Of a DNA stretch of 37,192 nt, positions 6,166-37,192 are shown in pieces. The first letter of the stretch is position 1. Every line of letters starts with the position of its first letter. This DNA is from Blastocatellia bacterium (GTDB lineage Bacteria > Acidobacteriota > Blastocatellia > HR10). A program made the position numbers and the translations under genes. The stretch spans positions 1 to 37,192 of the forward strand of contig DATLZR010000158.1 of NCBI GenBank assembly GCA_035573895.1, written 5' to 3'. The notes under the pieces were generated by a model, which saw only the letters and a program-made list of their open reading frames with translations, did not search any database and was not told where the DNA came from.

Positions 6166-6184
6166 TCAATTACCGTCATGTCAA
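6156..6184 (-). promoter_or_regulatory. Sigma70-type promoter candidate for the radical SAM/peptide operon
   Basis: Read on the minus strand, a perfect TTGACA (6184-6179) is followed by a 17-base spacer and TATTTT (6161-6156, four of six matches). It is the best promoter in the 304-base divergent gap 5988-6291, which otherwise holds no convincing gene, only frames of 20-26 codons without ribosome sites. The leader to the radical SAM start would be about 165 bases. Confidence 0.5.
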
Positions 6185-6291
6185 GGCGGGAAACCCTGGA
6201 GGGCACTCATCTCTTTGCCATCCGATGGGGGCACCGTAAAATAAGACTCTCGGTTTTGACATACGCAAGCGATATTTCGGCGGAGGTGAGA

Positions 6292-9112: not shown

Positions 9113-9205
9113 CTGACGCGCCACGCGCCGATCCGAGCAGGCGCAGCAATCTGAGGCGACACATAAGGGCTTCTCGATGAATCATGAAATGGAGGTGGAA
9201 GCAAG

Positions 9206-12859: not shown

Positions 12860-12968
12860 TGTTGCTCACATCCCCATCGCCCCCGGCCCGGGGGACCGCC
12901 GATGCCGAGCGGATCTTCCCCACATCCCCCGACCCCGAAAGCCAATGGACTTACGGAGGTGGAGACGT

Positions 12969-14123
12969 ATGAATCGCCGCCAGGCTCTCACAACTATTGC
13001 CGGATCATGTCTTGTTGCCGGGATGGCCCCGATGATCAATCGCGGGCGGTATCGCCTCTTCGCTCAGTCGGCCCGCGAATACTCCGCACGAACAATCGAA
13101 CTTGTCGGTCGCTCACTCGTCATAGACATGCTGAGCCCGCTCGTCCTCAGTCAGTCGAGGATGCGCAAGCTGCTGAGCGATCCGGCCAGCCTCACTCCGG
13201 CTGATATTCAACGCTACAAGGAGTCCGGCATCACCGTCTTTCACGTCGCCGTGGGAGTGGGGGGCCGGGAGGCCACGCTCAATGTGCTGCGGTATGTGGC
13301 CGGATGGAACGGGTTCATCGCTCACCACAGCGACCATTTCACCCGCATTGATAGCCCGGCCACACTCGACGCCGTCAGGCGATCGGGAAAAATCGGCATC
13401 CTCATCGGCGTTCAGAATTCCGAGCATTTCCAGACGCTCGACGATGTGGATATGTTTTTCGGACTCGGCCAGCGAGTCTCTCAATTGACCTATAATGCCC
13501 GCAATCTCATCGGCAACGGAAGCACCGAACGCCGGGACGATGGCCTCAGCGATTTTGGCGTGGCGATTGTTGAACGGATGAACAAAGTGGGGATGGCTGT
13601 TGATGTTTCCCACTGCGGCGATCGCACGACGCTCGATGCGTGTGAGGTCTCGAAAAAACCCGTTCTCATCACTCACTCCAACTGTCGCGCCCTGAATCCT
13701 AATCATCCCCGGTGCAAGACGGACGAGGCCATCACTCGAATGGCCAAGACCGGCGGGGTGATGGGGATCACCGGCGTGCGCATGTTCGTGAAGGCCGATG
13801 AACCCACGACCATCGAGCACGTCCTCGATCATTTCGACCATGTCGTACGGCTGGTTGGGATCGAGCATGTCGGCATCGGGAGCGACGTTGATCTCGATGG
13901 CTATGACGACCTGCCCCCGGCGGAACTCAGAGCGTTGAGGGCGAGCTATAAAGGGAGTTATGCCTTCCGCGACAAGATTGACATTGAGGGGCTCGACCAT
14001 CCCAAACGCATTTTCGATTTGACCGAAGGACTCATCCGTCGAGGCTACAGCGATCGGCACATCGAGCTTATCCTCGGAGGGAATTTCGCTCGCGCTCTTA
14101 AAGAGATCTGGACCGTTGGTTAA
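12969..14123 (+). CDS. M19 membrane dipeptidase-family protein, altered metal site
   Basis: The 384-residue protein starts at the ATG at 12969 behind GGAGGTGGAGAC; the frame is open 62 codons further upstream, but that part has no support. The N-terminus MNRRQALTTIAGSCLVAG resembles a Tat or Sec export signal. The M19 fold is supported by VDVSHCGDRT (metal His), ITHSNCRALNPNHPR (metal His), GVMGITGVRMF and GIGSDVDLDGYDD, close to the family's GSDFDG. The first metal motif, normally HxD (for example DGHND), is replaced by VIDMLSP, and the bridging glutamate region reads IGVQNSEHF. Family members cleave dipeptides, often with a D-residue at the C-terminal position. Changed ligands leave the reaction uncertain. 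Confidence 0.83.
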   Translation: MNRRQALTTIAGSCLVAGMAPMINRGRYRLFAQSAREYSARTIELVGRSLVIDMLSPLVLSQSRMRKLLSDPASLTPADIQRYKESGITVFHVAVGVGGREATLNVLRYVAGWNGFIAHHSDHFTRIDSPATLDAVRRSGKIGILIGVQNSEHFQTLDDVDMFFGLGQRVSQLTYNARNLIGNGSTERRDDGLSDFGVAIVERMNKVGMAVDVSHCGDRTTLDACEVSKKPVLITHSNCRALNPNHPRCKTDEAITRMAKTGGVMGITGVRMFVKADEPTTIEHVLDHFDHVVRLVGIEHVGIGSDVDLDGYDDLPPAELRALRASYKGSYAFRDKIDIEGLDHPKRIFDLTEGLIRRGYSDRHIELILGGNFARALKEIWTVG

Positions 14124-16356: not shown

Positions 16357-18465
16357 ATGGGAAAGAAACTCACAGTAAAGGTCGTGGTCGCACTCGTCTG
16401 CTGCGCCCTGATGGGCACGGCTCTCGGTTTGGCTCAATCGCCGTCGGCAGCGGCCAATCGCCTGACGGCTATGGATGTTTTTCAGTTGGAGCTGGCGAGC
16501 GATCCGCAAATTTCGCCCGACGGAAAGCGCATCGTCTACGTTCGCCAGTTCAGTGATGTCATGACGGACCGTCGCTACTCGAACCTCTGGATCATTAATG
16601 TGGATGGGACAGACCATCGTCCATTGACGACGGGCAATTACAACGACACGTCGCCGCGATGGTCTCCCGATGGGACGCAGATCATCTACATCTCGAATCG
16701 CGACGGCTCGCCGCAGATCTATCGCCGGTGGATGGACACGGGACAGACGGCCAAGGTCACGAATGTGACGTCACCCCCAAGTGGCATCGCCTGGTCACCT
16801 GACGGCAAGTGGATTTCCTTCGCCATGCATGTTCCCGAACCGCCGCCGACAATTGCCAAGCTTCCCACGCCGCCCGAAGGAGCACGGTGGGCCGAGCCGG
16901 CCCGTGTGATTGATAAGCTCGTTTATCGGTTCAATGGCATCGGCTATCTCAAGCCGGGATACACGCATCTGTTCGTCGTTCCGGCTGACGGCGGCACGCC
17001 GCGTCAAATTTCCAGCGGGAAATTTCATCACGGGGGCATCGGCTTCAATGCCAGTGAGGCGGTGTGGACGCCCGATGGCAAATTCCTCATCATATCGGCC
17101 AATCGCCACGAGGACTACGAGGTGGAAGCTCGCAACACCGACATCTACGAATTCTCGGTGACTGACGGATCGGTACGGGCGCTGACCACCCGTAAAGGAC
17201 CCGACGGCTCGCCGGCCATTTCGCCCGATGGACGACTGATCGCGTATGTGGGCTATGATGATCGTTATCAAGGCTACCAGGTGACCAAGCTCTACGTGAT
17301 GAACCGTGATGGGAGTGGCTCGCGCGTCATTTCGGCATCGCTGGATCGGGATGTGGCCAGCCCCCGCTGGGCGCCGGACGGAAGCGCCATCTACTTCCTC
17401 TCGGACGATCAGGGGAATACCGGTCTGTACGTTGCCAGCCTGGACGGGAAAATCCGGCGACTCGTGAACAACGTCGGCAGCGGGATGAGCGCCTACAGCG
17501 GAGGGGGAGCGTTCACCCTGGCCCGGAATGGGACCTTCGCCTTCACCTATAAGACGCCCTATATCCCCGGTGACATCGCAGTGGCGAGCATCACCGATCC
17601 GACCCCGCGCATCCTCACCGCCGTTAACGAGGATCTCTTCGCCACCCGGAAGCTCGGACGGGTGGAAGAAATTTGGTACACATCATCCAAGGACGGTCGG
17701 CGGATTCAGGGATGGATCATAACGCCGCCCGATTTCGATCCCACCAAGAAGTATCCCCTCATCCTGGAGATTCATGGCGGACCCTTCGCCAACTATGGCG
17801 ACCGATTCGATCTGGAGAAGCAACTGATGGCTGCCAGCGGCTACGTCGTGCTTTATACGAACCCGCGAGGGAGCACGAGCTATGGTGAAGAGTTCGGCAA
17901 CCTCATCCATCACGCCTATCCCGGCGATGATTTTTACGATCTCAATTCCGGCGTGGACGCCATGGTGGCCAAAGGGTACATTGATCCCGATCAGCTTTTC
18001 GTGACCGGCGGCAGCGGCGGTGGCGTGCTGACCTGCTGGATGATCGGGCGTACGACGCGATTTCGCGCTGCTGTCACGGTTTATCCGGTGATCAACTGGT
18101 ACAGTTTCGTTCTCACGACCGACATCCCCTGGACGGTGAAATACTGGTTCCCCGGTTTCCCCTGGGACCACGTCGAGCACTACGAGAAGCGATCTCTTTT
18201 GTCGGTGGTGAAGAACGTCAGGACGCCGACGATGATTCTCACGGGCGAGGCCGATTATCGCACGCCGATGTCGGAGTCGGAGCAATACTATGCGGCGCTC
18301 AAGCTGCTCGGTGTGGAGAGCGTTCTCGTGCGTGTTCCGGACGAGCCGCACGGGATTTCGCAGCGACCCAGTCACCACATCTCAAAAATCCTCCACATCA
18401 TCGGGTGGTTCGATCGGCACCGGAAACCCTCAGGCGTTGTCGAAGCAAACACCACCTCACGGTGA
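16357..18465 (+). CDS. S9 prolyl-oligopeptidase-family peptidase (first copy)
   Basis: This 702-residue secreted protein starts behind GGAGGAGGTGAACG. A signal peptide (VVVALVCCALMGTALGLAQ) is followed by a seven-blade beta-propeller with repeated WSPDGT/WSPDGK units (about residues 45-430). An alpha/beta hydrolase domain has the triad Ser553 in GGSGGG, Asp633 in GEADYRTP and His665 in DEPHGI. The oxyanion-side motif EIHGGPFANYG is also present. S9B/S9C enzymes release dipeptides or acylated residues from short oligopeptides. It resembles the second S9 gene at 32102-34120 closely enough to be a paralogue. The likely site of action is the periplasm. Confidence 0.94.
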   Translation: MGKKLTVKVVVALVCCALMGTALGLAQSPSAAANRLTAMDVFQLELASDPQISPDGKRIVYVRQFSDVMTDRRYSNLWIINVDGTDHRPLTTGNYNDTSPRWSPDGTQIIYISNRDGSPQIYRRWMDTGQTAKVTNVTSPPSGIAWSPDGKWISFAMHVPEPPPTIAKLPTPPEGARWAEPARVIDKLVYRFNGIGYLKPGYTHLFVVPADGGTPRQISSGKFHHGGIGFNASEAVWTPDGKFLIISANRHEDYEVEARNTDIYEFSVTDGSVRALTTRKGPDGSPAISPDGRLIAYVGYDDRYQGYQVTKLYVMNRDGSGSRVISASLDRDVASPRWAPDGSAIYFLSDDQGNTGLYVASLDGKIRRLVNNVGSGMSAYSGGGAFTLARNGTFAFTYKTPYIPGDIAVASITDPTPRILTAVNEDLFATRKLGRVEEIWYTSSKDGRRIQGWIITPPDFDPTKKYPLILEIHGGPFANYGDRFDLEKQLMAASGYVVLYTNPRGSTSYGEEFGNLIHHAYPGDDFYDLNSGVDAMVAKGYIDPDQLFVTGGSGGGVLTCWMIGRTTRFRAAVTVYPVINWYSFVLTTDIPWTVKYWFPGFPWDHVEHYEKRSLLSVVKNVRTPTMILTGEADYRTPMSESEQYYAALKLLGVESVLVRVPDEPHGISQRPSHHISKILHIIGWFDRHRKPSGVVEANTTSR

Positions 18466-18581: not shown

Positions 18582-20804
18582 TCAGGAAGATTCCTGTTGT
18601 GCGAGAAGCGTTCGCATCAGTCGCACGACATCCTGCTGGTGGAAGGGCTTCTCCAGGAAGCGACTTCCAGTCTGCTGCAAAAAGGCGCGTGTATCCGTAC
18701 TGATCACATCGCCGGTGATGAAGACGATTTTCTTAGCCAATGTCCCATTGAATCGCTTCAGTTCCTGGTAAAGCTGCTGGCCATTGACCAGCGGCATCTT
18801 GACGTCGCAGAAGATTAAGTCGTAGACCCGGCTCCTGAGTTTGGCCAAAGCTGCGCGGCCATCGGTGGCCGTTTCAACCGAGTGACCTTCGCTCGCGGCG
18901 ATAGTCTGGAGAAGTCGGACGATGCTCGGTTCATCGTCAATGACGAGAATCTGTTTGGGCGCAGTCGGCGGAAGAGACTGAACCTCGTCCGGTTCCGATG
19001 AAGGGTGTTCATTGAGTTCCGTAACGAGGGGAAGCTCGATGACGAACTCCGCTCCTCCCTCGGAGCGGTTTCCGGCGGAGATTCTTCCGCCATGCTGCTC
19101 GATGATGCTATGGGAGATGGACAAGCCCAGGCCCGTTCCCTGACCGACCGGCTTGGTGGTGAAGAAGGGCTCGAAAATACGATGGAGAAGATCTGGCGGA
19201 ATTCCCGGTCCGTCGTCCGCCACGATGATTTCAACCAGGGTATTTGTGTGCGATGGCAGATCGGCGGACGCCGGTCGTTGGCCGTTGGAAGGCTGTGAGG
19301 CCGGCGAGACTTCACCCGTGAGGGACTTGCAGTCGTGCTCCGGTCGAAGAGCCTTCACCCGCGTGCGAACGAATAGATGGCCGCCACCATGCGCCTGCAT
19401 GGCCTGTTCCGCGTTAATGATGAGGTTGAGGAAAACCTGCTGAAGTTGCGCTCCATCAGCGACGATGAGAGGCAATTGCGGGTCGAAGTCAGTGACGATC
19501 TCAATGTTATTCACCTTCAGTTCGTAGGAGCGCAGGGCCAGGGTGCGCTCCATCAGCTCGTTGATGTTGACGGGGGATCTCTCCACTGGATGCTGGCGAG
19601 CGAAGGCGAGCAAGTTGCGGACAATCTGACTGGCCCGTCGAGCTGCTTCGTGGATGGCCGTGAGTCCTTCTTCCAGCAACTCTTCTGGCGGATGGGACTG
19701 CTGGCACAACAACTCGCTGTAGCCGATGACAGTGGTCAGCGGGTTATTCAACTCGTGAGCGATCCCCGAAATGAGCTGCCCGAGGGCAGCCATCTTCTCG
19801 GTGTGAAGGATCTGCTGCCGGAGCCGGTGTGACTCCGTCATATCCCGAACGATGATCAGAACAGCCGGTTTTCGCCAGTAGTCAATGGCGCAGGCGTTCA
19901 GGTTGACGGGGATCGCCGTCCCGTCTTTGCGCACCATCATGATATCTAGCGGAGCAGTCATCCCCTGAGGAGATCTCCACAGGTGGTGACGAGCAACCGT
20001 TTCCCGATCACGAGGATGAACCAGATCAAGGAAGCAGAGGTGGCGTATTTCCTCCGCCGTGTAGCCGAACAAGGCCAATCCGAAGGGATTGAGATATTGG
20101 AACCGTCCGTCCTGAACGATGGCGACGGCATCGTTGGCACTATCAATGAGTGTCCGGAACTGACGCTCAGACTCGCGGAGCTTTTCCGCTTGATGACGGG
20201 TTTCGTTGAGGAGTTCGGCGACATCTCGATATAAGGCGGCATTTTCAATGGCCACACCGATGATATCGCCCGCGGCGGTGAGGAACTGCCGGGCATCAGC
20301 ATCAACCTGTTTGGGGTGAGGGTGAACTATGAGCAGGACTCCCAGGGTGCGACCCTTCGACCGAAGAGGGATGGCGGCGAAAAACCAGTATCCCTCGCGC
20401 CGCAAGGATCGGCTGAGCGGATGACCATCTCCGGTGGGTATTTCGCCGACAGCCGGTTCTCCTGTCTGCATCACCCGGCCGATACAGGTGTCGCCGGGAT
20501 TAATGCGTTCGATCTGCGATACCGTGGCCGGTGAAATTCCCGCAGACGCCTTCAGAGTCAAATCCCCCGTAAAAACATCGGTGAGGAAAATCATCCCCGC
20601 ATCACACTCCATCAGATGGAGGACTTGCGAGATGGCGCTCTCGAGCGTTTCCTGAAAATCGAGAGACTGACTGACCGATGAGGCGATGGAGTTAAGGGCA
20701 GCCAGTTGTCGGCTATGTTCGACGATGCGGCGACTCCACTGGAGGATCCGCTCGTGCGTCTGAGTCGAAGCGACATTCTCTTGCATCCGATCTTGCCACA
20801 TCAT
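18582..20804 (-). CDS. Hybrid sensor histidine kinase (GAF-PAS-HisKA-HATPase-receiver)
   Basis: The 740-residue protein has no signal peptide or membrane segment, so it is probably cytoplasmic. In order: a GAF domain (about 40-195), a PAS domain (about 215-325, ending IIVRDMTE), a HisKA domain with phospho-acceptor His350 in GIAHELNNPL, an ATPase domain (about 440-595; NLIINAEQAM, DDGPGIP, GTGLGLS) and a C-terminal receiver (about 615-735) with phosphorylatable Asp667 in FCDVKMPLVNG and Lys in LEKPF. It may sense a small molecule or redox cue. It is the last gene of the minus-strand run that begins with the sigma factor, 127 bases after the subtilase. Membership of that operon is uncertain. 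The start codon follows AAGGG. Confidence 0.94.
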   Translation of the reverse strand: MMWQDRMQENVASTQTHERILQWSRRIVEHSRQLAALNSIASSVSQSLDFQETLESAISQVLHLMECDAGMIFLTDVFTGDLTLKASAGISPATVSQIERINPGDTCIGRVMQTGEPAVGEIPTGDGHPLSRSLRREGYWFFAAIPLRSKGRTLGVLLIVHPHPKQVDADARQFLTAAGDIIGVAIENAALYRDVAELLNETRHQAEKLRESERQFRTLIDSANDAVAIVQDGRFQYLNPFGLALFGYTAEEIRHLCFLDLVHPRDRETVARHHLWRSPQGMTAPLDIMMVRKDGTAIPVNLNACAIDYWRKPAVLIIVRDMTESHRLRQQILHTEKMAALGQLISGIAHELNNPLTTVIGYSELLCQQSHPPEELLEEGLTAIHEAARRASQIVRNLLAFARQHPVERSPVNINELMERTLALRSYELKVNNIEIVTDFDPQLPLIVADGAQLQQVFLNLIINAEQAMQAHGGGHLFVRTRVKALRPEHDCKSLTGEVSPASQPSNGQRPASADLPSHTNTLVEIIVADDGPGIPPDLLHRIFEPFFTTKPVGQGTGLGLSISHSIIEQHGGRISAGNRSEGGAEFVIELPLVTELNEHPSSEPDEVQSLPPTAPKQILVIDDEPSIVRLLQTIAASEGHSVETATDGRAALAKLRSRVYDLIFCDVKMPLVNGQQLYQELKRFNGTLAKKIVFITGDVISTDTRAFLQQTGSRFLEKPFHQQDVVRLMRTLLAQQESS

Positions 20805-20931: not shown

Positions 20932-22173
20932 TTAGCGGACGGCTCCGAGGACATCAATGCGGCCCCGTCCGAGGAGTCCGGCATAGCCGGGATTAAGACG
21001 GTCAATATTGACGGCGCTTCGGAGGATGGCCCAGCGGACGTTCCACCGCCCGGCTGAGATCACCAGAGCTGCTTCGCCGCTGACGAAAGCCGCCGCGTAG
21101 GATGTACCGCTGCCCCAGCCAAAGCGCCCACCGGGAAAGGCGCTGTAGATGGAGACGCCGGGGGCAGAGACGTCAATATGGCTGCCGTAATTGGAGAAGG
21201 GGGCCTTGACATCACCGCTGTCCGTTGCAGCAACGGCCAAAACATCGTCGTCCGAAGCCGGATACTCAGGAGAACTCGTGCTGTCATTGCCGGCTGAGGC
21301 GACGAGAATGACGCCGTGTCGAGCAGCATAGTCAACGGCCGCCCGCAGGACTTCAGGTCCGGAGGAACCGGGGATACCGAAGCTCATGTTGATCACATCG
21401 GCTCCCGCGCGGACGGCGTACCGGATCGCCGTTGCCACCTCGGAGATCTTCCCGATCCCGTCTGGGTCGAAGGCCCGAATCGGCATCAATCGGGCACGCG
21501 GAGCGATGAGACCAACAATGCCAGCGACCATCGTCCCATGCCCGTAGGCCATCCCGCCGGGCACTTCTGCCGGGTTCCGATCCTTATCAACGAAGTCGAA
21601 GCCCCTGACCAGCCGTCGTGCCGCGATGGCCGGATGACCGGCATCAATGCCGGTATCTATGACGGCGACTGTGACGCCTTCTCCTTGAGCAATAGCCTGT
21701 GCCTCCTCCGCCCGAATGAGGGTAACCGCGTACTGCCCGAAGTAATCCGTCGGGGACAAGCCATCAACAAAAGCTACGCTGCGTTGATCAACAAACGCGA
21801 CACTGCGTTGTTCTACTTCCGGCACTCTCACCCAGTAGTTGGGTTCGGCGGACCGCACGTCCCCGTCGGCCCGCAGTTGGTTGATTACCTGCCAGGCAGT
21901 TGCGGGTGAGGTGTAGGAGAAGACATAGAAATCATCCTCCAGATCGCCGATGAGTTGCAGGTTATGTCGTCGCGCAACGGTCAACGCACTCCGACCCGGC
22001 CTGAGCTGGCAGATCACCTCTCCCCCGCCTCGCTGACGCTGCGCGTGAGCCACGAGCTGATCCCCCGATGTCGTTCCTTCGGAGGGAACCAGCATGGGTG
22101 CTCCGGCAAGAAAGAGCATGAGGATCGAGCCTCCGACGACCATCACGACTCTACTCTTCCCTCTCCTTTTCAT
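20932..22173 (-). CDS. Secreted subtilase (S8) with I9-like pro-domain
   Basis: The 413-residue protein starts at the ATG at 22173 behind AAGGAGGAG; a longer open frame upstream overlaps the CHAT gene and lacks support. A signal peptide (residues 8-28) is followed by an inhibitor-I9/fervidolysin-like pro-domain (about 50-117, ending VRSAEPNYWVRVPE). A linker with the octapeptide QRSVAFVD twice (122-137) precedes the subtilisin domain, whose triad is Asp173 in VIDTGID, His212 in GHGTMVAG and Ser358 in GSGTSYAAA, with oxyanion Asn297 in SAGND. All catalytic residues are present. The gene follows the CHAT gene by 50 bases on the same strand, so the two proteases are likely co-expressed. Confidence 0.94.
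   Translation of the reverse strand: MKRRGKSRVVMVVGGSILMLFLAGAPMLVPSEGTTSGDQLVAHAQRQRGGGEVICQLRPGRSALTVARRHNLQLIGDLEDDFYVFSYTSPATAWQVINQLRADGDVRSAEPNYWVRVPEVEQRSVAFVDQRSVAFVDGLSPTDYFGQYAVTLIRAEEAQAIAQGEGVTVAVIDTGIDAGHPAIAARRLVRGFDFVDKDRNPAEVPGGMAYGHGTMVAGIVGLIAPRARLMPIRAFDPDGIGKISEVATAIRYAVRAGADVINMSFGIPGSSGPEVLRAAVDYAARHGVILVASAGNDSTSSPEYPASDDDVLAVAATDSGDVKAPFSNYGSHIDVSAPGVSIYSAFPGGRFGWGSGTSYAAAFVSGEAALVISAGRWNVRWAILRSAVNIDRLNPGYAGLLGRGRIDVLGAVR
21763..21810 (-). repeat. Tandem 24-base repeat encoding QRSVAFVD twice
   Basis: Two adjacent 24-base units (21810-21787 and 21786-21763, minus strand) are 21/24 identical. All three differences are at third codon positions and are silent, so the peptide is conserved while the DNA has drifted. 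The repeat sits at the pro-domain/catalytic-domain junction of the subtilase. Confidence 0.9.
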
Positions 22174-22223
22174 ATGAAAACTCCTCCTTCTCGCAGTTGT
22201 CGTTCTGTTTGGAGGCGTCGCCA

Positions 22224-25103
22224 TTAAGATGCTCCCATGAGGATAAATGGTGCCCAAAAATAAGGGTGATGGTACTGACCCTTGACCGCCAGTTGAGCCT
22301 GTCGCAGAGCTGCCCGCTTCGAAAGCCCCCCTTTCAATCCGGCGTAAAACTCCCGCATGAGTTCCGCCGTCGAACGATCGTTCACCATCCACAAGCTGAC
22401 AACAAGTGACGGAGCACCGGCGTAGAGGAATCCACGCATCAACCCGAAGAGCTCATCTCCCGGGAAGACCTCGTTCATTCCCGTCTCGCATGCGCTCAGG
22501 GTGACAAGCTCCGCCTGGAGGTTGAGGGTGAAAATATCATAGAAATTCAGCCACCCATCACCGACCTTCAAGGCAGAGAACATGGGATTATCCCGGCGAA
22601 AGACTCCATGAGCAGCCAGATGAACGAGGCGACATCGAGAGGCGCAGTGTCGCACTTTCTCCAGCGTCGCCTCGGGGCCGCGCAGAACTTGTGCCTCTTC
22701 CCACAGTGATTTCACCGCCGCCACTTCCTCCTCGATGAAAGGGGCGTTTTCGTCAGGGACGCCAACGATGAGAATTTCCGTCCCCACGCGCTGCGTGCGC
22801 GCTTTATCCGAACAGAGTTTGTAGACGCTGGCGCTGGGGCAATAGGAAATCTCATACTGTTCGATCAAATAGCGCTCACCATCATGGAGGGCGTGGAAGG
22901 GGACATAGTGCAGGAAATCATGGGGAACAAAAATAATCTTCTTTCCCGCCAGCACCGGGGCAATAGGTTGAACGAGGGCTTCATGCAGCTTTTGCAGATA
23001 GCGACGAGTGAGAAACTCGACGTTCTCCTGATGAGCGCGGATGTAGCTTTCGCTGAGAGTAAACTTGTCCAGGTAAAACTTCAACCGCCGGAGTAAGGGC
23101 GTGATGACATGCAAGCTGGTGATGTCATTGAAAACGTGAATCTCCTCGCGGCTGAGGCTGAAAGCCTTAACTCTTCCGTCAACTGAAAAGTACTCGATGA
23201 GAACTTCATCCGGGGCCAGGCACTGGCGGACCTCACGGGCATCAAACTGAGGTGCCGTATGAAGCAAAGCATACTCAGCATCTTCCAAAGAGAGGCGGCG
23301 TGCCAGGCGGGCCAGTTGTTTCTCCCGCTGGCGTACCTCCTCATGCAGATGCATGCCAAGCCAGGCGGGACGCTGTTGCGCCCGGCTCTCATAATGGTTC
23401 ATCCGGTTGTAATACCAATCCAGCTCTTCGCGGAGGCGATTCCACTGGCGATAGAGGCGCTCGACCGACGGGTCCTTGACTTTGCCGGGAATGGTGCGAT
23501 TCATCGCCAGCAGTTCGACGAGCGACCGCGATTTTGCCGCTTCCACATAGGTGAAGGCTTCTTCTACCTTCGCTTGGGTTCCCGCGCGCAAACACAGCTC
23601 GACCAGATCCTCGTAGACGCGCAACTTGTCCTTGAGAAACGAACACTTGTACTCATCCAAACGGATGCTCGAGCGCAGGGACTCCAGATAGGTGATCGCC
23701 TGCCGGTAATGATGATAGGCCTGTTGCTCCTGACCGGCCTTTTGCATCGAATGGCCGAGCAGATGCAAGCACTGATACTTGAGCCAGGGGACCTCGGCAT
23801 CGCCGATCAGTTGAAGGGCCGACTGACAGAGGGTTCCCGCTTCGTCCAGATCACCCAGGAAGAATTTCAACCGCGCCAGTTGCAATTCGGCATAAGCGGC
23901 TTTGGCCGACAGATTCTGTTCTCCGAAGAGCCGGCGCGCTTCAGCGCATAACCGCAGCGCCTGATCCCACTCATGCCAGTGCGTGAGCAGATCGCTCAGA
24001 TAGATATCGGTCAGCGCCGTATAGACATCATTGCCTTCGGCGAGGAAGCCGCGCCGGGCTTCCTGAAGAGCTTGTTCGGCTGCCCGGAAGTTGTTCAGAT
24101 GCGTGTACGCAATCCCCATGTACATCTGGGCCTTGGCGCGCTCATAGGTCATCCGCATCTCGGAGAATTTTTCCGCCGCCAATCGGGCGGATTCGAGCGC
24201 GTCCTCATAGGTGTTAAGTTGAAGATAGACCTCGGCCATATCAAGATCGCACAGGGCATCGAGAAGTGTATCCCCAAGCTCCAGCGCCCGCGCTCGCACC
24301 GAGGTGAACAACTTCAAACTTTCCTGAAAGCGCCCGCGGAGGAAGTACAACCAGGCAATGCTGTAGTCGGTCTGGTTGACAAGCTGTGGCATGTCCAGGC
24401 GCTCGTAGCCCTGCCGCGCCTGTGCGTAAAGCGCCAGGGCCTTTTCAAATTCGTTGAGCTGCGTGTACTGATTGGCCATGCTGAAGCGGGCGTGAGCCAG
24501 CCCGAACTCATCCTCGTGAGCGGCAAACGTCGCCTCCGCGCGCCGGTAATAGTCCAGAGCCTCTCGGTAGCGGTCTTGCCGGTGATAAATATTGCCGACG
24601 TTGAGTTCAAGTTGCGCCAGGAGAATCTCCTCGCCGTGACGATGAAAGACTTCGCGGGCGCGGGCGGCAACCTCCAGGGCTTCCTCATAGCGACCCAGAT
24701 ACATCAGGGCGTCTACCTTCGCACGGGCAATGCGGGCCGCATCCACTTCACGTCCCGCTTCCTCATAGATCCGCTCGGCCTGCTCGTAAAACTCAACCGC
24801 TTCGGGGTAGCGGCCGGTAAAGTGCATGGCCAGCGCACAAGCATGATGCGCCTGAGCCAGGCCTAAAGGATCATCACAAAACCGGGCGGCTGCTTGAGCG
24901 ATCTCCGCCAGGGCAACTGCTCGATGCAGGTCCGCCCGGATCAGACGAGCCACTTCCTCCTTGAGGCGTTGAATGACCGAGGCGCTTATCGGCCCTCGCC
25001 GATACCGCAGAAGCCGGTTGAACTCCTCCACTCCCGAGAGCCGCAAAAGCTGCTGTGAAAATTCCCCCTCGGTCCATGCCATCGGTGAAGCAAACTGTTC
25101 CAT
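22224..25103 (-). CDS. TPR-CHAT caspase-like cysteine protease
   Basis: This 959-residue protein has no signal peptide and is probably cytoplasmic. The N-terminal half (about residues 40-480) is a run of tetratricopeptide-like repeats (for example GRYPEAVEFYEQAERIYEEA and DRYREALDYYRRAEATF). A helical stretch follows. The C-terminal CHAT domain has the catalytic dyad His832 in LVHLAAHGVF and Cys872 in LSACETG, with GDELFGLMRGFLYAGAPSLV and the terminal WAPFILMG typical of the family. CHAT proteins are clan CD proteases related to caspases and separase. The ATG at 25103 begins two bases after the stop of the upstream zinc-finger protein; this near-overlap suggests coupled translation. The TPR part probably senses or binds a partner. 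No substrate is known; the subtilase encoded next is a candidate. Confidence 0.93.
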   Translation of the reverse strand: MEQFASPMAWTEGEFSQQLLRLSGVEEFNRLLRYRRGPISASVIQRLKEEVARLIRADLHRAVALAEIAQAAARFCDDPLGLAQAHHACALAMHFTGRYPEAVEFYEQAERIYEEAGREVDAARIARAKVDALMYLGRYEEALEVAARAREVFHRHGEEILLAQLELNVGNIYHRQDRYREALDYYRRAEATFAAHEDEFGLAHARFSMANQYTQLNEFEKALALYAQARQGYERLDMPQLVNQTDYSIAWLYFLRGRFQESLKLFTSVRARALELGDTLLDALCDLDMAEVYLQLNTYEDALESARLAAEKFSEMRMTYERAKAQMYMGIAYTHLNNFRAAEQALQEARRGFLAEGNDVYTALTDIYLSDLLTHWHEWDQALRLCAEARRLFGEQNLSAKAAYAELQLARLKFFLGDLDEAGTLCQSALQLIGDAEVPWLKYQCLHLLGHSMQKAGQEQQAYHHYRQAITYLESLRSSIRLDEYKCSFLKDKLRVYEDLVELCLRAGTQAKVEEAFTYVEAAKSRSLVELLAMNRTIPGKVKDPSVERLYRQWNRLREELDWYYNRMNHYESRAQQRPAWLGMHLHEEVRQREKQLARLARRLSLEDAEYALLHTAPQFDAREVRQCLAPDEVLIEYFSVDGRVKAFSLSREEIHVFNDITSLHVITPLLRRLKFYLDKFTLSESYIRAHQENVEFLTRRYLQKLHEALVQPIAPVLAGKKIIFVPHDFLHYVPFHALHDGERYLIEQYEISYCPSASVYKLCSDKARTQRVGTEILIVGVPDENAPFIEEEVAAVKSLWEEAQVLRGPEATLEKVRHCASRCRLVHLAAHGVFRRDNPMFSALKVGDGWLNFYDIFTLNLQAELVTLSACETGMNEVFPGDELFGLMRGFLYAGAPSLVVSLWMVNDRSTAELMREFYAGLKGGLSKRAALRQAQLAVKGQYHHPYFWAPFILMGAS

Positions 25104-25105
25104 GA

Positions 25106-25789
25106 TCAACTCTCGCGCCCCTCGCGGGTCGTTTTCTGCCCGAAAGATCGAACAATCGCCGGAAGGTCGGGGATGTAGATGGCCTGATCCTTCAATCGAA
25201 TCCTCAGATCGTAGACCCCTTCCTGCACGCCATCGAGAATGAACTCGCCGAAGACATTGGCCTGCGTGATATGGGCCAGTGTCGAAGCCTTCACCAGCTC
25301 GACGGTCGCATGGGCGACCGACCGAAGGTCATTGGTGATGGGCATGGATTGGCCGATGATGTCAACGGCATCCTTGGCTTCAATATAGTCCACCGACAGG
25401 TCAACATCGTAGTCGCCCGCCCGATAGAGGAACTGTCGAGACATCGGCCAGGTACCTCGTAAGCCCAGAAGCCGCCCCTCCGCAAAGCTATCCACAACGA
25501 GCACGGCCAGCGTGGCCCGTTCCTCGGCCGATGGCTGCAACTGCCGATGGTGCCGATACAGGGCTTGTGCCTGACGCCGCAACCAGATTGGAGGGTCAAT
25601 AAGACAGGGATCCCAAACTGCCGAAAGGAGCTTCCGAATCTGGGTCAAGCGATGGCGACAGCTTTCACACCCCGCTTCCAGATGTCTGCGAATCTCCTCA
25701 AACGACCGTGAGAGAGGGTCAGGCCAGGTCGCCCTCTCATCGTCGTTTTGCTGGGCGAAGGCTAAAAGCTCTTCCACCGTCGGACACAT
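25106..25789 (-). CDS. Zinc-finger anti-sigma-like protein, soluble
   Basis: The 227-residue product starts at the ATG at 25789, behind AGGAGG; an upstream in-frame ATG at 25807 precedes that site. The N-terminus carries HLEAGCESCRHRL (about residues 36-48), the HxxxCxxC signature of zinc-binding anti-sigma factors (zf-HC2/ZAS). The middle is charged and helical, and the C-terminal part (about 165-215, HITQANVFGEFILDGVQEG) looks like a small beta-sandwich. No membrane segment is seen, unlike most anti-sigma factors, so it would act in the cytoplasm. It lies between the sigma factor gene (85 bases upstream) and the CHAT gene (2 bases downstream). Control of the sigma factor and a link to the CHAT protein are inferred from this order. 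Confidence 0.7.
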   Translation of the reverse strand: MCPTVEELLAFAQQNDDERATWPDPLSRSFEEIRRHLEAGCESCRHRLTQIRKLLSAVWDPCLIDPPIWLRRQAQALYRHHRQLQPSAEERATLAVLVVDSFAEGRLLGLRGTWPMSRQFLYRAGDYDVDLSVDYIEAKDAVDIIGQSMPITNDLRSVAHATVELVKASTLAHITQANVFGEFILDGVQEGVYDLRIRLKDQAIYIPDLPAIVRSFGQKTTREGRES

Positions 25790-25874
25790 GATGCCGCCTC
25801 CTCGCATTGAACGACTAACCTGCTTTCCAATTTAATGGTGCAGCTACCCACCAGGAAAAATTCCCCCAGAATGA

Positions 25875-26501
25875 TTAAAAACCCAGTTCCGTTAGGATTC
25901 GCAGGAGTTTCCTCAAGCAACGCCCCCGCTTGGGGCCGATAGTCGAGACCGATAATCCCAGCTCCCGAGCAATCTCCTCGTAAGACCAGAACTCTTTCTC
26001 ATAAAAGAGGTATGTGAGGAGCCGACGGCACGGCTCCTGCATCATGGAGAGTGCTCGCCGGACCAGATGCTCCCGCTCCATTCGCTCGATGACTTCATCG
26101 GGAAGGAGTTGTTCATCGGGCAGCTCAGCGACTTCTTCCTCAACCTGATCCAGGCTGACAACCGGAGCCGATTGTCTCCGCCGCACCCGATAACACTGCC
26201 GCAGCGTCACCGTCGTCAACCAGGAACTCAGTTTGGATTCATCGCGCAGATTCTCCAGATCCTGCAGCAGGACCAGGCAGACCGACTGGAAGACATCAGC
26301 TACATCTTCTGGAGGAAGGTTCGCCCGCCACGCAATGGAATAGATGAGACTCCCATAGCGGTCGAGCAAAGCTTCCCAGGCGTCGGCGTCACCTTTCAAG
26401 CATCTCTTGATTAAAGCGCGATCTGATTCCTGGTGATAACCCGTGGTGTGCGAGAGATCGGCCAGATAGAGGTCGAGACCTTCACTCGTTCGATTCGCCA
26501 T
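25875..26501 (-). CDS. ECF-type sigma factor
   Basis: The 208-residue product contains region 2 (about residues 28-100; GDADAWEALLDRYGSLIYSIAWR, then DVADVFQSVCLVLLQ and KLSSWLTTVTLRQCYRVRRR) and region 4 (about 145-205; LLTYLFYEKEFWSYEEIARELGLS, then GRCLRKLLRIL), with no region 3. That is the layout of an extracytoplasmic-function sigma factor. The ATG at 26501 is chosen over an upstream in-frame GTG because the sequence from MANRTSEG is more typical; the ribosome site is weak either way. It is the first gene of the zinc-finger/CHAT/subtilase run and probably directs its expression. No promoter motif for it was identified. Confidence 0.9.
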   Translation of the reverse strand: MANRTSEGLDLYLADLSHTTGYHQESDRALIKRCLKGDADAWEALLDRYGSLIYSIAWRANLPPEDVADVFQSVCLVLLQDLENLRDESKLSSWLTTVTLRQCYRVRRRQSAPVVSLDQVEEEVAELPDEQLLPDEVIERMEREHLVRRALSMMQEPCRRLLTYLFYEKEFWSYEEIARELGLSVSTIGPKRGRCLRKLLRILTELGF

Positions 26502-26822: not shown

Positions 26823-26908
26823 GGAGGGTTAGCCTAATTGGTAAGGCACCGGTCTTGAAAACCGGCGGGCGAAAGCCCTTGTGGGTTCGAGTCCCTCACC
26901 CTCCGCCA
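26823..26908 (+). tRNA. tRNA-Ser (anticodon UGA)
   Basis: An 86-base class II tRNA can be folded completely. The acceptor GGAGGGT/ACCCTCC has discriminator G and encoded CCA. The D-stem is GCC/GGC and the anticodon stem CCGGT/ACCGG with loop CTTGAAA, so the anticodon is TGA (26856-26858). The long variable arm is GGGC-GAAA-GCCC, and the T-loop is TTCGAGT. The T-stem GTGGG/CCCTC contains one T-T mismatch at its second pair. The long variable arm and G73 are serine tRNA features. Confidence 0.95.
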
Positions 26909-32101: not shown

Positions 32102-34120
32102 TTACTTTCGCCGATATTTCTCGAACCAAGCCAGGAGGTAGAGCTGTTGAGCGAGCTGGTGTGTGGGTCTCCGCCAGCCGTGGTATTCCTCGGGCATGCG
32201 CACGAGAAGCGTCTCTTTCTTGAGCATTTTCAGAGCCCGATAGAACTCCTCGCTCTGTCCGATGGGCGTGCGCAGATCGGCTTCCCCGGTCATGATCATG
32301 GTCGGCGTTTTGACGTTGGCCACGTAATGGAGCGGTGAGCGCACGGCATATTCCATCGGATCTTCCCAGGGGAATTTCTGGAACTGGTCGTACCAGCTCG
32401 CGCCGTCAGTTGTGCCGACGAACGAGTGCCAGTTGATCACCGGTCGCATGGAGACGGCCGCCGCAAACCGATCGGTATGACCGACGATCCAGGCCGTAAG
32501 CACACCGCCTCCACTCCCTCCACAGACGAAGAGATTTTTCTCGTCAATATATCCTTTGGCAATGGCTGCGTCCACCGCTGCCATGAGATCGTCATAGTCT
32601 TTGCCCGGATACGAGTACTGAATTCCGTTGACGAACTGCTGTCCGTAGCCAGTGCTGCCGCGCGGATTGGTATAAAGCACGACGTAGCCATTGGCGGCAA
32701 AGTTCTGGAACGCCCAGTTGAAGGCCACCGAGTACATGGACCAGGGACCACCGTGAATCCAGAGGACCATCGGATATTTCTTGTTCGGATCGAAGTCCGG
32801 CGGGCGGATGAGCCATCCCTGAATCTTCCAGCCATCGGGAGATGTTGCCCACAGCTCTTCGGCCTCACCCAGAGTGATGTCCCCGAGCACGTCCTCATTG
32901 ACATCCACGAGCTTCTTCAGGTTGTTTTCTCCTCGCAGATTGAACGTCACCAGATGCGGCGGTTCTTTGAACGTCGAGCGAATGGCGGCGACCTGACCGT
33001 TCTTCGCCACCGAGAGAGAGCTGAGCGTGTGCACGCCCTCGAGGACCTTCCGCATAGGCCCGCTGACGGGAGCAAAATAGACGGTTGTAACGCCTCGCTC
33101 GCCCACCGTGAAGTAGACGCCCGAGCTATCGGGGGCCCAGGTGATGTCTCCCGGTGAGTTGTTCAACCCCTCCGCCCAGGCCCGTTTCGACCCACCGTTT
33201 TTATCCATGAGGTAGAGATTCGACAGGTGGTAGGTGTAGTTTTTGTGATCGTACCCGGTGTAGGCAATCCACTCGCCGTTGGGCGAGACGCGAGGATTTC
33301 CATCGGGCCCTTTTCGGTCCGTCAGAGCTTTGATCTCAAGCGTGCGCAGATCCACAGCGTAGATTTCGCTATCCCCTCGAAGGTATTCGGCATCGGGCTT
33401 GCGAATGGCGGAAACGTAGAGGGTTTTCCCGTCGGCGGACCATTCGGGGTTACTGTGATTGTACTTGCCCGAGGTGATCTGTTTGGGCGTGCCGCCGAGC
33501 GTCGCGTCAATGACGAACACATGGGTGTAGCCTTTGGGAATGAAGCCCTGGCCGTCGCGCGCCCAACTGAGGCGGTCCACGACCACGGCGGGTCGCGCCC
33601 ATTCCGCACCCCGCGGACGTTCGGGCAAACGAATGGGAAGGATGGGGTCCTCGTCCGGCACCATCTGGGTGAACGCGATGAACTTTCCGTCAGGCGACCA
33701 GCGGAGATTACTCGGCGGCCGCTGCAGGTGCGTGAGCTGTGTGACTTCGCGCGTCTCCACCCAGAGCACGTGAATCTGCGTGGATCCGGACCGGTCGGAC
33801 AGAAACGCCACCCGCTTGCCGTCGGGCGACCAGACGGGATTGCTGTCCCGCCACAACCCCTCGGTCAACTGGCGCACCCGCGTCCCTTCTACATCTACGA
33901 TCCAGAGGTTACTCCGGTACTGATCCTTCAACTTGTCCACCCAGGTACGGGTGAAGACGATCTGTCGTCCGTCCGGGGATATTTCCGGATTTCCCACGCT
34001 TTCCATCTCGAGGAAAGTTTCTTTGTCAAGCACGCGCAGCTTTTGCTGTGCGGCCAGGAGAGTGAGATTGCTGCTGACCACCACGATGATCGTGACGAGA
34101 GAAAGAATCGCTCTTCTCAT
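32102..34120 (-). CDS. S9 prolyl-oligopeptidase-family peptidase (second copy)
   Basis: The 672-residue product starts at the ATG at 34120 behind AAGGAGGAG. A signal peptide (AILSLVTIIVVVSSNLTLLAAQ) precedes a beta-propeller with WSPDGK repeats (about residues 35-410). The hydrolase domain has Ser536 in GGSGGG, Asp615 in GEADLRTP and His647 in EEYHGW. LWIHGGPWSMY and YTNPRGSTGYGQQF are close to the equivalent parts of the first S9 copy, so the two are probably paralogues. It should cleave short oligopeptides outside the cytoplasm. The tricorn-type protease gene lies upstream on the same strand (138 bases, with a hairpin between them). Confidence 0.94.
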   Translation of the reverse strand: MRRAILSLVTIIVVVSSNLTLLAAQQKLRVLDKETFLEMESVGNPEISPDGRQIVFTRTWVDKLKDQYRSNLWIVDVEGTRVRQLTEGLWRDSNPVWSPDGKRVAFLSDRSGSTQIHVLWVETREVTQLTHLQRPPSNLRWSPDGKFIAFTQMVPDEDPILPIRLPERPRGAEWARPAVVVDRLSWARDGQGFIPKGYTHVFVIDATLGGTPKQITSGKYNHSNPEWSADGKTLYVSAIRKPDAEYLRGDSEIYAVDLRTLEIKALTDRKGPDGNPRVSPNGEWIAYTGYDHKNYTYHLSNLYLMDKNGGSKRAWAEGLNNSPGDITWAPDSSGVYFTVGERGVTTVYFAPVSGPMRKVLEGVHTLSSLSVAKNGQVAAIRSTFKEPPHLVTFNLRGENNLKKLVDVNEDVLGDITLGEAEELWATSPDGWKIQGWLIRPPDFDPNKKYPMVLWIHGGPWSMYSVAFNWAFQNFAANGYVVLYTNPRGSTGYGQQFVNGIQYSYPGKDYDDLMAAVDAAIAKGYIDEKNLFVCGGSGGGVLTAWIVGHTDRFAAAVSMRPVINWHSFVGTTDGASWYDQFQKFPWEDPMEYAVRSPLHYVANVKTPTMIMTGEADLRTPIGQSEEFYRALKMLKKETLLVRMPEEYHGWRRPTHQLAQQLYLLAWFEKYRRK

Positions 34121-34144
34121 AGCTCCTCCTTGGGGATGTCGTAC

Positions 34145-34183
34145 GGGAGCGTCCCGTCCGCTCCTAACGGACGGGAACGCCCC
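34145..34183. terminator. Stem-loop between tricorn-type and S9 peptidase genes
   Basis: GCGTCCCGTCCG and CGGACGGGAACGC pair with a small offset around the 7-base loop CTCCTAA. The hairpin is 75 bases after the tricorn gene stop and before the S9 gene. It may end or attenuate the upstream transcript; there is no T-tract. Confidence 0.4.
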
Positions 34184-34258
34184 GCGACATGCTGATATAG
34201 AGCAGGTCATCGCGCCTGCACGGAGTTTCGCATCGAATGCTTCCGCTTCCAGGGCGGT

Positions 34259-37192
34259 TTATTTCTTCGTTGCCGTGACCGAGCCCACGCGCGAATTCCC
34301 TCCATGATAGTTTGGGTAGGCGGGCAGTTTCGGGCGCGGCAAGGGTGTCTTCCTGAGCGCGTCCATCACGACTTCGACCGCCTTCTCCAGTTGAGGATCG
34401 CGGCCTTCGCGCCAGGCCTTCGGGTCCAGTTCGACTTCAATATCGGGAGCGACCCCATGATTTTCGACGTCCCAGACACCATCCGGGCTGAAGAAGGCCA
34501 CGCGGGGAGCGGTCACCATTCCGCCATCTATCAATTGGGGATAGTCGTAGATGCCCACCAGCCCGCCCCACGTCCGCTTGCCGATGAGCGGTCCCAGACC
34601 GGCTCGCCGGAAGAGCCAGGGCATGAGATCACCTCCCGAACCGGCATATTCGTTGATGATCATCGCCTTGGGACCGAAGATGGCAGTGGCGGGCGTGGTG
34701 AAGATTTTCCCCTCGCGCGTCACCCAGTAATTCATCAACGGTCGCCGCAAGTAGTCAATGATGTAATCGGCAGCCGTACCCCCGCCGTTGAACCGCTCGT
34801 CAATGACAGCTCCCTCCTTGTGAATCTGAGCGAAGTAGTAGCGATTGAAATTCGTGTAGCCGCCGACGGCTGTATCGGGCAGATAGATATAGGCCACCCG
34901 TCCTCCGCTCAACTCTTCGACGCGACGACGGTTGGCCTCGATCCAGGCGAGGGCGCGGAGACCGGTCTCACTTTCGACGGGCACGACCGTGACCTCGCGG
35001 GAATTTGCTCCCGTGGGATCAGGGCCGACGCGAAGGACGACCGCTCGTCCCGCGGTCGCTTCAAAGAAGCTGTAGATATTGTCCGTCGCGCGCAACTCAC
35101 GTCCATTGACCGCCAGCAGATACTCGCCCACCTGCACATTGACTCCCGGTTGGGTGAGCGGCGCACGAAGCTGTGGGTTCCAGTTCTCCCCGCTGTAGAT
35201 GCGGGCGAAGCGATACCGTCCGTTTTCGATGGTGTAATCGGCGCCGAGAAGTCCCACCTTCACGCGCTTCACCGGTGGTAAATCTCCCCCTCCAACGAAG
35301 AGATGACCGACTGAGAGTTCGCCGAGCATCTCAGCAAACAGGTAGGTGAGATCCGTCCGGTGCGCGACGGCATCGAGGAAGGGTTTATATTTCTCCTCCG
35401 CCGCTTGGAGATCAAGACCGTGAAAGCCAGGATCGTAGAAGAAATCGCGCTGGATGCGCCAGACCTCGCGATACATCTGCCGCCACTCGGCGCGGGGATC
35501 AACGAGGACTTCCATCTCATCGGTTCGGAGGGCTCCTTCCCCCGGCTTCACCGGCTGTGCGATGGCGGCGATGAACCAGCGATCCCCTTGCTTATAGAGC
35601 ATTTTCTCCCCGTTGTGGGAAAGGTCGAAGGCCGTGATCCCCTCGAGGACCTTATCCACCTTTCGCTTCTCCAGCGTGAAACTGTAGAGCGTCAACGCTG
35701 CCGTATCGGCGAGCGGGGTGAGCCGCTGAGGAGCCTCCAGCAGAAAGAGCGTCCCCGCCTTCCCCGCTCTCAGGCTGACATAATTGCGGGCGGGAATCGG
35801 CAGGGCTAAAATCCGCTGGCCGATGTTGTCGAAATCAATCGTCACAGTGATCGCCTCTTTTGACGAAGAAGCCGCCGGTTCCGCTTTCTTCGCCTCCGGT
35901 GTTTTCTCCTCATCGCTTTCGGGAGCGAGTGGAGAGGGCAGGTCCTTCCGCAACACGATCAGATAGACGCTACGGGTGACCGGACGATTAAAACTCGACA
36001 TATCGAGCCAGCCGGTCGCCGGGCCGACATCGGTGCTGGCCGTGAAGAAAATGTATTTGCCACTGGCATCGAAGACAGCAAAGCGCGCGTCACTCATTCC
36101 ATCAGTGAGTTGATGACGCTCGCCCGTCTCCAGCGAGTAGACCATGACGGCGCACAACCGATTGTCCAGCTGTTTGGTATAAACAATCCAGCGGCTATCG
36201 GGCGACCAGGCCGGATCCAGAACCCGCCAGGGATTCTCGTAGGTATTTGTATCCACCTTCACCGGCGTGGCTTTCTCAATGTCCACGTACCAGAGCGTCA
36301 GCCGCTTATCGGTGTAGGCAATTTTCTTGCTATCAGGCGACCAGGTGGGAGCATAGAAAAACGAGGGGGGTGTGCCCAGGGGAATTTTCTTGACCTCCCC
36401 CATTCCGCTCTGCGGGCGGAGATGCAAGGCATATTCGCCCGACTCATCGGAGAAGTAGGCAATCCATTGACCGTCGGGCGACCAGGCCGGATCGCGCTCG
36501 GCCACGCCAGGCGTATTGGTGAGATTGCGAACGTCCCCTTTCTCCGCCGGAACGGTGAGAATCTCTCCTCGGGCTTCAAACACGGCCCGAACGCCTGAGG
36601 GCGAGAGTCGTCCGCGCACAATCCGATCCGAGACCCGCTCGTAGCGTGGACGCACGGTGAGCACATCGCCAGCGATGCGCACGCGCAGAGGGCGCGTCTT
36701 GCCTGATGCCAGATCGTAAAGATGCAACGATCCGAACTGCTCGTAGACGATTGCTCCAGGGCCCGCACTGGCCGACTTCAGGTCGAAACCGCGATTTTCG
36801 ATCACGCGGCTGACTCGCTTGGTCCGCGTGTCATAGACAAAGAGGGTCACCGGCCCCTCCCGATCAGAGAGGAAGTAGATTTTGTCGCCGATCCACATCG
36901 GATTGAAATCGTTCGAGTTTTGGCGGGGAATCTTCTCGATGCTCGAATCCGAGAGTGTGGCGATCCAGATCGGTGTGGCCAATCCTCCCCGATACCGCTT
37001 CCAGGCTTGAACGAGACCCTGTCCCGGAAAGGGATCGCGTGGCAGCGGTACATAGGCGAGTCGTCTCCCGTCCGGCGAGTAAGAGGCTTCATATCCCATC
37101 GGCAGGGGAATCTCCTTGGGGAATCCCCCATCCACCGAGATAGTGAACAATCGGTTAAAGCGCGGCGAGAAACTCGATCGGTTCGAGGTGAA
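34259..37192 (-). CDS. Tricorn-type S41 protease, N-terminus outside window
   Basis: The frame is open to the window edge, so the protein's start is missing; 977 residues are present. The part before the first listed start codon (FTSNRSSFSPRFNRLF) continues the domain, which confirms truncation by the window and not a start at 37150. Propeller repeats (WSPDGQWIAYF, WSPDSKKIAYT, WSPDSRWIVYT) fill the first half. An acidic, Ala/Lys-rich linker, a helical C1-like region (FYDPGFHGLDL), a PDZ domain (VGEYLLAVNGREL) and an S41 catalytic core follow, with RFNGGG and the nucleophile motif NEYAGSGGD. Tricorn proteases degrade oligopeptides to short peptides. The C-terminus ends GSVTATKK. An N-terminal signal cannot be assessed. 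Confidence 0.94.
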   Translation of the reverse strand, partial: FTSNRSSFSPRFNRLFTISVDGGFPKEIPLPMGYEASYSPDGRRLAYVPLPRDPFPGQGLVQAWKRYRGGLATPIWIATLSDSSIEKIPRQNSNDFNPMWIGDKIYFLSDREGPVTLFVYDTRTKRVSRVIENRGFDLKSASAGPGAIVYEQFGSLHLYDLASGKTRPLRVRIAGDVLTVRPRYERVSDRIVRGRLSPSGVRAVFEARGEILTVPAEKGDVRNLTNTPGVAERDPAWSPDGQWIAYFSDESGEYALHLRPQSGMGEVKKIPLGTPPSFFYAPTWSPDSKKIAYTDKRLTLWYVDIEKATPVKVDTNTYENPWRVLDPAWSPDSRWIVYTKQLDNRLCAVMVYSLETGERHQLTDGMSDARFAVFDASGKYIFFTASTDVGPATGWLDMSSFNRPVTRSVYLIVLRKDLPSPLAPESDEEKTPEAKKAEPAASSSKEAITVTIDFDNIGQRILALPIPARNYVSLRAGKAGTLFLLEAPQRLTPLADTAALTLYSFTLEKRKVDKVLEGITAFDLSHNGEKMLYKQGDRWFIAAIAQPVKPGEGALRTDEMEVLVDPRAEWRQMYREVWRIQRDFFYDPGFHGLDLQAAEEKYKPFLDAVAHRTDLTYLFAEMLGELSVGHLFVGGGDLPPVKRVKVGLLGADYTIENGRYRFARIYSGENWNPQLRAPLTQPGVNVQVGEYLLAVNGRELRATDNIYSFFEATAGRAVVLRVGPDPTGANSREVTVVPVESETGLRALAWIEANRRRVEELSGGRVAYIYLPDTAVGGYTNFNRYYFAQIHKEGAVIDERFNGGGTAADYIIDYLRRPLMNYWVTREGKIFTTPATAIFGPKAMIINEYAGSGGDLMPWLFRRAGLGPLIGKRTWGGLVGIYDYPQLIDGGMVTAPRVAFFSPDGVWDVENHGVAPDIEVELDPKAWREGRDPQLEKAVEVVMDALRKTPLPRPKLPAYPNYHGGNSRVGSVTATKK

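Follow-up and report, generated by a model that had tools for sequence, protein, structure and literature searches.

A conserved cassette of sigma factor, zinc-type regulator, TPR-CHAT protease and subtilase suggests a protease-operated gene switch outside CRISPR

The window analysed here, a 37,192-nucleotide stretch from a Blastocatellia bacterium, carries four consecutive genes on its minus strand. An ECF-type sigma factor of 208 aa (25875-26501; TIGR02937 4.6e-25, PF04542 1e-10) is followed by a soluble regulator of 227 aa (25106-25789, characterised by profile matches and an AF2 model), a TPR-CHAT protein of 959 aa (22224-25103; PF12770 5e-72 plus TPR repeats) and an exported S8 subtilase of 413 aa (20932-22173; PF00082 4e-42). 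This tightly packed set and its order had been described in an earlier, sequence-only reading, and we confirmed both order and coordinates, as well as the 2-base coupling of the regulator and TPR-CHAT genes, in which just TC stands between the TGA of the regulator and the ATG of the protease (25103). The starts of the regulator and subtilase probably need correction: AGGAGG lies 7 bases upstream of the regulator's second ATG (25789) and also precedes the subtilase ATG at 22173, so both proteins are probably slightly shorter than their longest frames. With a start at 25807 the regulator would have 233 aa, and residues are given below in this numbering; the alternative subtilase start at 22224 forms a TAATG overlap. 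Behind the subtilase, a soluble hybrid histidine kinase with a GAF-PAS-HisKA-HATPase-REC architecture, identified by domain matches (18582-20804, minus strand), counts as the cassette's fifth gene in this order. The earlier reading did not include this kinase, nor the regulator's beta-sandwich half or the relation to group ECF54 (both discussed below). Within the order, homologues of the kinase directly follow CHAT, in place of S8, at L045, L046 and L053, and one follows S8 at L052 as it does in the window.

The surroundings of the cassette have features of their own. Immediately upstream of the sigma gene, at 26823-26908, the plus strand carries a tRNA-Ser (tga) gene. The contig encodes many peptidases between 886 and 37150, including a C25 gingipain-like protein (886-4392), an M14 (6178-7515), an M19 (12783-14123), two S9 (16357-18465 and 32102-34210) and a tricorn-type S41 (34259-37150) in addition to the S8 at 20932-22173, and it also encodes a transglutaminase (9206-10222). 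A search of the window proteins with PADLOC returned no defence-system label: the TPR and subtilase matches were generic, and those to IetS were weak.

To judge how far such a grouping could arise by chance, base rates were counted in the same 3.9 Mb genome, which holds five S8 matches, eight CHAT matches (about seven genes), 21 matches to sigma-70 region 2 and two regulators. Both regulators are found in sigma-regulator-CHAT-S8 cassettes, one in the window and the other on contig C40; with rates this low, the association of these genes goes beyond chance. Other CHAT genes of this genome (L012-L014 and L016) are far more distant and have no regulator. At L015 (genome G000, contig C30, 5951-9199), a CHAT gene is split over two frames and a sigma-70 region 2 ORF (8999-9199) lies directly downstream, with no regulator found at this locus. 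The locus may be a second type of neighbourhood for CHAT and sigma genes, or one that has decayed.

Conservation was surveyed from two directions. When the regulator was used as the query against 58 relatives and the DNA around each match was read, it was present in 19 of them, at up to eight places per genome, and nearly all matches belonged to a sigma-regulator-CHAT cassette, usually with the subtilase next to it. For a selection of loci independent of the regulator, we also scanned an alignment of cassette CHAT proteins against genome contigs. Among the best 80 loci selected in this way, some of which were already part of the regulator survey, 42 had enough flanking DNA on both sides; a sigma gene was present in 38 of these, the regulator in 40, the subtilase in 34 and all three in 34. 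The association of the four families, for which the sequence-only reading had named conservation in related genomes as the check, is therefore borne out. Two gene orders predominate, namely sigma-regulator-CHAT-subtilase (the window, Chloroflexota and Rubrobacter) and sigma-CHAT-regulator-subtilase (Terriglobia). The regulator profile matched in 15 of 296 sampled Actinomycetota genomes, with full cassettes at most of the loci read. The hosts span Acidobacteriota, Chloroflexota and Actinomycetota, from habitats that include soil and hot springs, and we regard the cassette and its conservation as firm. On plasmids, CHAT relatives were limited to partial matches covering at most 58% of the query.

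The regulator has two parts. Its N-terminal 90 residues contain the zinc ligands C8, H42, C47 and C50, in a motif of the form C..H-x4-C-x2-C, and the HxxxCxxC-type motif, its upstream ligand and the helical N-terminal domain in the model are those of class-I (ASDI/ZAS) anti-sigma domains. Profiles of the domain matched anti-sigma domains in the PDB (RsiW at 2.5e-7, DdvA at 1.1e-5 and ChrR at 7e-4), and zf-HC2 was matched by 5 of 31 regulator relatives. H42, C47 and C50 are present in 92 of 102 aligned rows, and the zinc motif occurs in 79 of 111 tallied regulators. The domain can also persist after its ligands are gone: in Actinomycetota the protein aligns over its whole length to the regulator (203 columns, E 3e-37) with the zinc ligands absent, and some Chloroflexota regulators likewise keep the domain without them. 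There is no membrane segment in the regulator of the window, and 101 of 105 regulators have no N-terminal hydrophobic export segment. The earlier proposal of a dedicated sigma factor paired with a soluble, zinc-type anti-sigma protein is upheld by these features, and homology strongly supports the N-terminus as a class-I anti-sigma domain, through which the regulator would bind and inhibit its cognate sigma factor. We scored the anti-sigma half as present or absent in 111 regulators by profile coordinates. Of the 99 loci with this half, 94 have a sigma gene in the vicinity, versus 6 of 12 without it (Fisher p 1.5e-4, calculated over lineages that are non-independent).

In 17 of 31 relatives, PF13620 (carboxypeptidase regulatory-like) is matched by the C-terminal half, and in the AF2 model of the regulator (pLDDT 84) it forms a confident, transthyretin-like beta-sandwich. 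Fold searches with the regulator gave generic beta-sandwich matches (best Z 8.4), and Foldseek returned nothing below 0.01. At the start of the sandwich is a loop with the pattern DS-x(7-8)-G-x-R, running from D106 to R117. The model is uncertain here (pLDDT of about 66 for the block 111-120), yet D106 (104 of 106 rows) and R117 (all 108 rows that are not gapped at this position) belong to the family's most conserved residues, and the motif is retained whether the anti-sigma domain is present or absent. Planctomycetota loci keep CHAT and the C-terminal half of the regulator in the absence of sigma, so that this half stays with CHAT after both the anti-sigma domain and sigma are lost, as at L148 and L158. 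The short Planctomycetota proteins (L148/L201, L158, L202 and L203) consist of the C-terminal domain alone, with neither a sigma gene nor an anti-sigma domain; they adjoin CHAT at three of four places, and L203 has two tandem copies together with a subtilase. These patterns are most naturally understood if the C-terminal half is the partner of CHAT and the N-terminal half that of sigma. At five loci of Pyrinomonadaceae type (L147, L152, L198, L199 and L200), sigma, CHAT and the subtilase are kept next to a regulator that has no anti-sigma helices or zinc motif.

The TPR-CHAT protein combines a TPR array with a CHAT domain carrying an intact His-Cys dyad. The catalytic Cys872 named in the sequence-only reading is the correct residue when translation starts at the ATG at 25103 (H832/C872; H834/C874 from 25109), and 32 of the 33 cassette members compared keep this dyad. 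In the AF2 model (pLDDT 87) the protein starts directly with TPR helices, and no signal sequence was seen in it. Among solved folds the nearest is that of Csx29, in its complex with Csx30 (Z 32.5); the catalytic part also resembles the catalytic domain of separase (Z 28.3, 2.9 A over 314 residues), while fold searches liken the TPR superhelix to the Rap/NprR peptide sensors. In separase, D2151 reads the Arg at P1, and its counterpart in Craspase is K670 (PMC9729208). We considered R117 as a separase-like P1 Arg, which would fit its invariance, and rejected this idea: the residue aligned to D2151, through K670 of Csx29 and by sequence alignment only, is the non-acidic Ala915, which leaves the invariant Arg unsupported in that role. 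The subtilase likewise has an intact triad (D173/H212/S358), with D, H and S invariant in 27 of 27 sequences, and in the window it begins with a hydrophobic export or anchor segment.

To ask how specifically the partners belong together, pairwise distances were compared across 29 cassettes, with 2000 within-genome partner swaps as the null. Sigma and regulator distances correlate with an r of 0.59, which 4 of the 2000 swaps reached, and 20 of 2000 reached the correlation between regulator and CHAT. The subtilase co-diverges with CHAT (4 of 2000) and with sigma (5 of 2000), and sigma-CHAT distances correlate weakly (189 of 2000). These values fit cassettes that are inherited as units and in which sigma is specifically partnered with the regulator, and the regulator with CHAT. 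In two-block EM scans of the regions upstream of the sigma genes we did not find a shared promoter motif; they yielded a weak motif without fixed spacing, and the signal from Terriglobia looks like coding sequence.

Taken together, the gene set suggests a protease-operated gene switch that resembles the one in type III-E CRISPR but is free of CRISPR. The N-terminal anti-sigma domain of the regulator would keep the ECF sigma factor inactive until a cue, sensed through the TPR superhelix, switches on the cytosolic TPR-CHAT protease. The protease may then engage the C-terminal beta-sandwich of the regulator and cut it, probably in the conserved flexible loop, and the cut fragment would let go of sigma. 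Once free, sigma would transcribe a regulon that probably includes the cassette itself and the exported subtilase, which may work outside the cytoplasm. We put the probability that the cassette is a conserved signalling unit in which CHAT acts on the regulator and thereby frees sigma at roughly 0.5. Proteolytic release of sigma by CHAT is the best reading and, by analogy with the close precedent of Csx29, Csx30 and CASP-sigma, a good inference. In favour of this model we counted the conservation of both the CHAT-selected loci and the regulator-selected Actinomycetota loci, the anti-sigma homology of the regulator's N-terminus, the co-occurrence of sigma with the anti-sigma half, the co-divergence of sigma with the regulator, of the regulator with CHAT and of CHAT with S8, the persistence of the C-terminal half beside CHAT where sigma is gone, and the fact that the closest fold, Csx29, cuts the sigma inhibitor Csx30. 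DdvA and HetF, described below, were counted on the same side. Counted against it were five regulators that have the anti-sigma domain with no sigma gene nearby, the Pyrinomonadaceae-type loci with sigma and no anti-sigma domain, the non-acidic Ala915 at the place of the separase Asp, and the weak correlation between sigma and CHAT. The lack of a shared promoter motif leaves autoregulation unproven and was also counted against this explanation. A more far-reaching form, in which a separase-like TPR-CHAT protease cuts the invariant loop of a previously unrecognised anti-sigma factor and releases an ECF sigma factor across several phyla, as a widespread and CRISPR-free switch, is put forward more tentatively, at somewhat under even odds.

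The main rival is a securin-like relation without cutting, in which the C-terminal domain binds CHAT stably, as a partner or as an inhibitor of the pseudo-substrate kind, and the activated TPR-CHAT protein strips the regulator from sigma by binding while its true substrate lies elsewhere. This would account for the way in which the C-terminal half and its loop accompany CHAT even in the absence of the anti-sigma domain and sigma, and an invariant residue in a flexible loop fits a pseudo-substrate as well as a cut site. The separase-like fold of CHAT points in the same direction, as separase is held by securin (PMC9729208). However, Csx29, the nearest fold, cuts its own sigma inhibitor (PMC10028731), and the conservation of the catalytic dyad implies that some substrate exists, so we consider binding alone unlikely, albeit a serious contender. 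Another possibility, which we hold to be improbable, is a redox or metal switch, in which the zinc anti-sigma domain senses an oxidant and frees sigma, as is thought for ChrR and RshA, while CHAT and the subtilase are mere members of the regulon. Redox sensing is common among soluble zinc anti-sigma factors (PMC8999054), and most of the tallied regulators have the motif, but 20 loci in Actinomycetota and Chloroflexota keep the domain together with sigma, CHAT and the C-terminal domain in the absence of zinc ligands.

Two further explanations give the proteases other targets. In PMC8999054, the gene neighbourhood of ECF54 is taken to mean that a neighbouring protease sets the level of sigma directly, with no anti-sigma factor involved. 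Applied to the cassettes studied here, this idea has to contend with a carboxypeptidase-type neighbour that bears an anti-sigma domain and with the finding that sigma and CHAT are the pair with the weakest co-divergence, and we judge it highly improbable. The earlier suggestion of a two-protease cascade, in which CHAT cuts and activates a pro-subtilase or the reverse takes place, is now less supported and strikes us as very improbable indeed. S8 does lie closely behind CHAT at most loci, and the two co-diverge, but 82 of 92 subtilases have an export-type N-terminal hydrophobic segment, whereas CHAT and the regulator look cytosolic, so that CHAT is unlikely to act directly on the mature enzyme; in several cassettes, moreover, S8 is missing or located elsewhere.

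Several characterised systems share parts of this arrangement, and type III-E CASP/Craspase is a particularly close one. There, the cut that Csx29 makes in Csx30 falls within a small flexible loop of the C-terminal domain of Csx30, and CASP-sigma is freed from inhibition (PMC10028731). Both systems have a TPR-CHAT protease, an ECF sigma factor (CASP-sigma, RpoE) and a soluble sigma inhibitor whose sigma-binding part is distinct from its C-terminal part, while the cassette differs in its extra subtilase and longer TPR region. No Cas7-11/gRAMP or other cas gene was found among the window proteins scanned with Pfam and PADLOC, and no Csx30 chain was among the regulator's sequence matches up to E 1 or listed in the fold searches, a result still compatible with a Csx30-like fold. 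A second parallel comes from the PDB entries 8rot and 8rw5, which bear the title "transmembrane anti-sigma factor DdvA" and match the anti-sigma profile at residues 1-48 and the cassette CHAT profile at residues 833-973, so these two modules also occur fused. The system is DdvS/DdvA of Myxococcus xanthus (PDB 8rot, 8rw5, 8rlz). Anti-sigma and CHAT domains are thus tied together in both cases, but DdvA is a single protein titled as transmembrane, whereas the regulator and protease described here are separate and soluble. HetF of Anabaena, the namesake of CHAT, can cut the regulator PatU3 (PMC12288457) and is likewise a CHAT-type protease that removes a regulator, although it acts in a divisome context and has no sigma/anti-sigma pair. 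A looser parallel is found in the cyanobacterial ECF sigma/DUF1822/EACC2-caspase systems, in which an ECF sigma factor lies beside a caspase-fold protease and an extra partner (PMC8195603), but DUF1822 was matched by none of 31 regulators here.

The comparison with ECF54 bears on what is new. For this group, the review PMC8999054 (citing Casas-Pastor 2021 and Huang 2015) describes a neighbourhood of CHAT, a subtilase and a "carboxypeptidase", proposes proteolytic control, recognises no anti-sigma factor and names an actinobacterial model member. A CHAT, a subtilase and a carboxypeptidase-type protein also lie near sigma in our cassettes, a likeness in gene content, and Actinomycetota carry the cassette with the same gene content. 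The difference is that the PF13620-type protein here has a clear anti-sigma domain, which is zinc-bearing in Acidobacteriota. We infer that the ECF54 "carboxypeptidase" is the PF13620-bearing regulator, and hence a hidden anti-sigma factor. With ECF54 already described, the gene content is less novel; what is new is the recognition of the PF13620-type protein as an anti-sigma factor, together with its loop. If this reading is true, ECF54-type sigma factors would gain their missing inhibitor, the company that CHAT proteases keep with sigma factors outside CRISPR would be accounted for, and a puzzle about the control of these sigma factors would turn into a three-protein experiment. The type III-E circuit of Csx29, Csx30 and sigma would in that case be a single, RNA-triggered example of a much broader and possibly older type, a member of a wide family of non-CRISPR switches.
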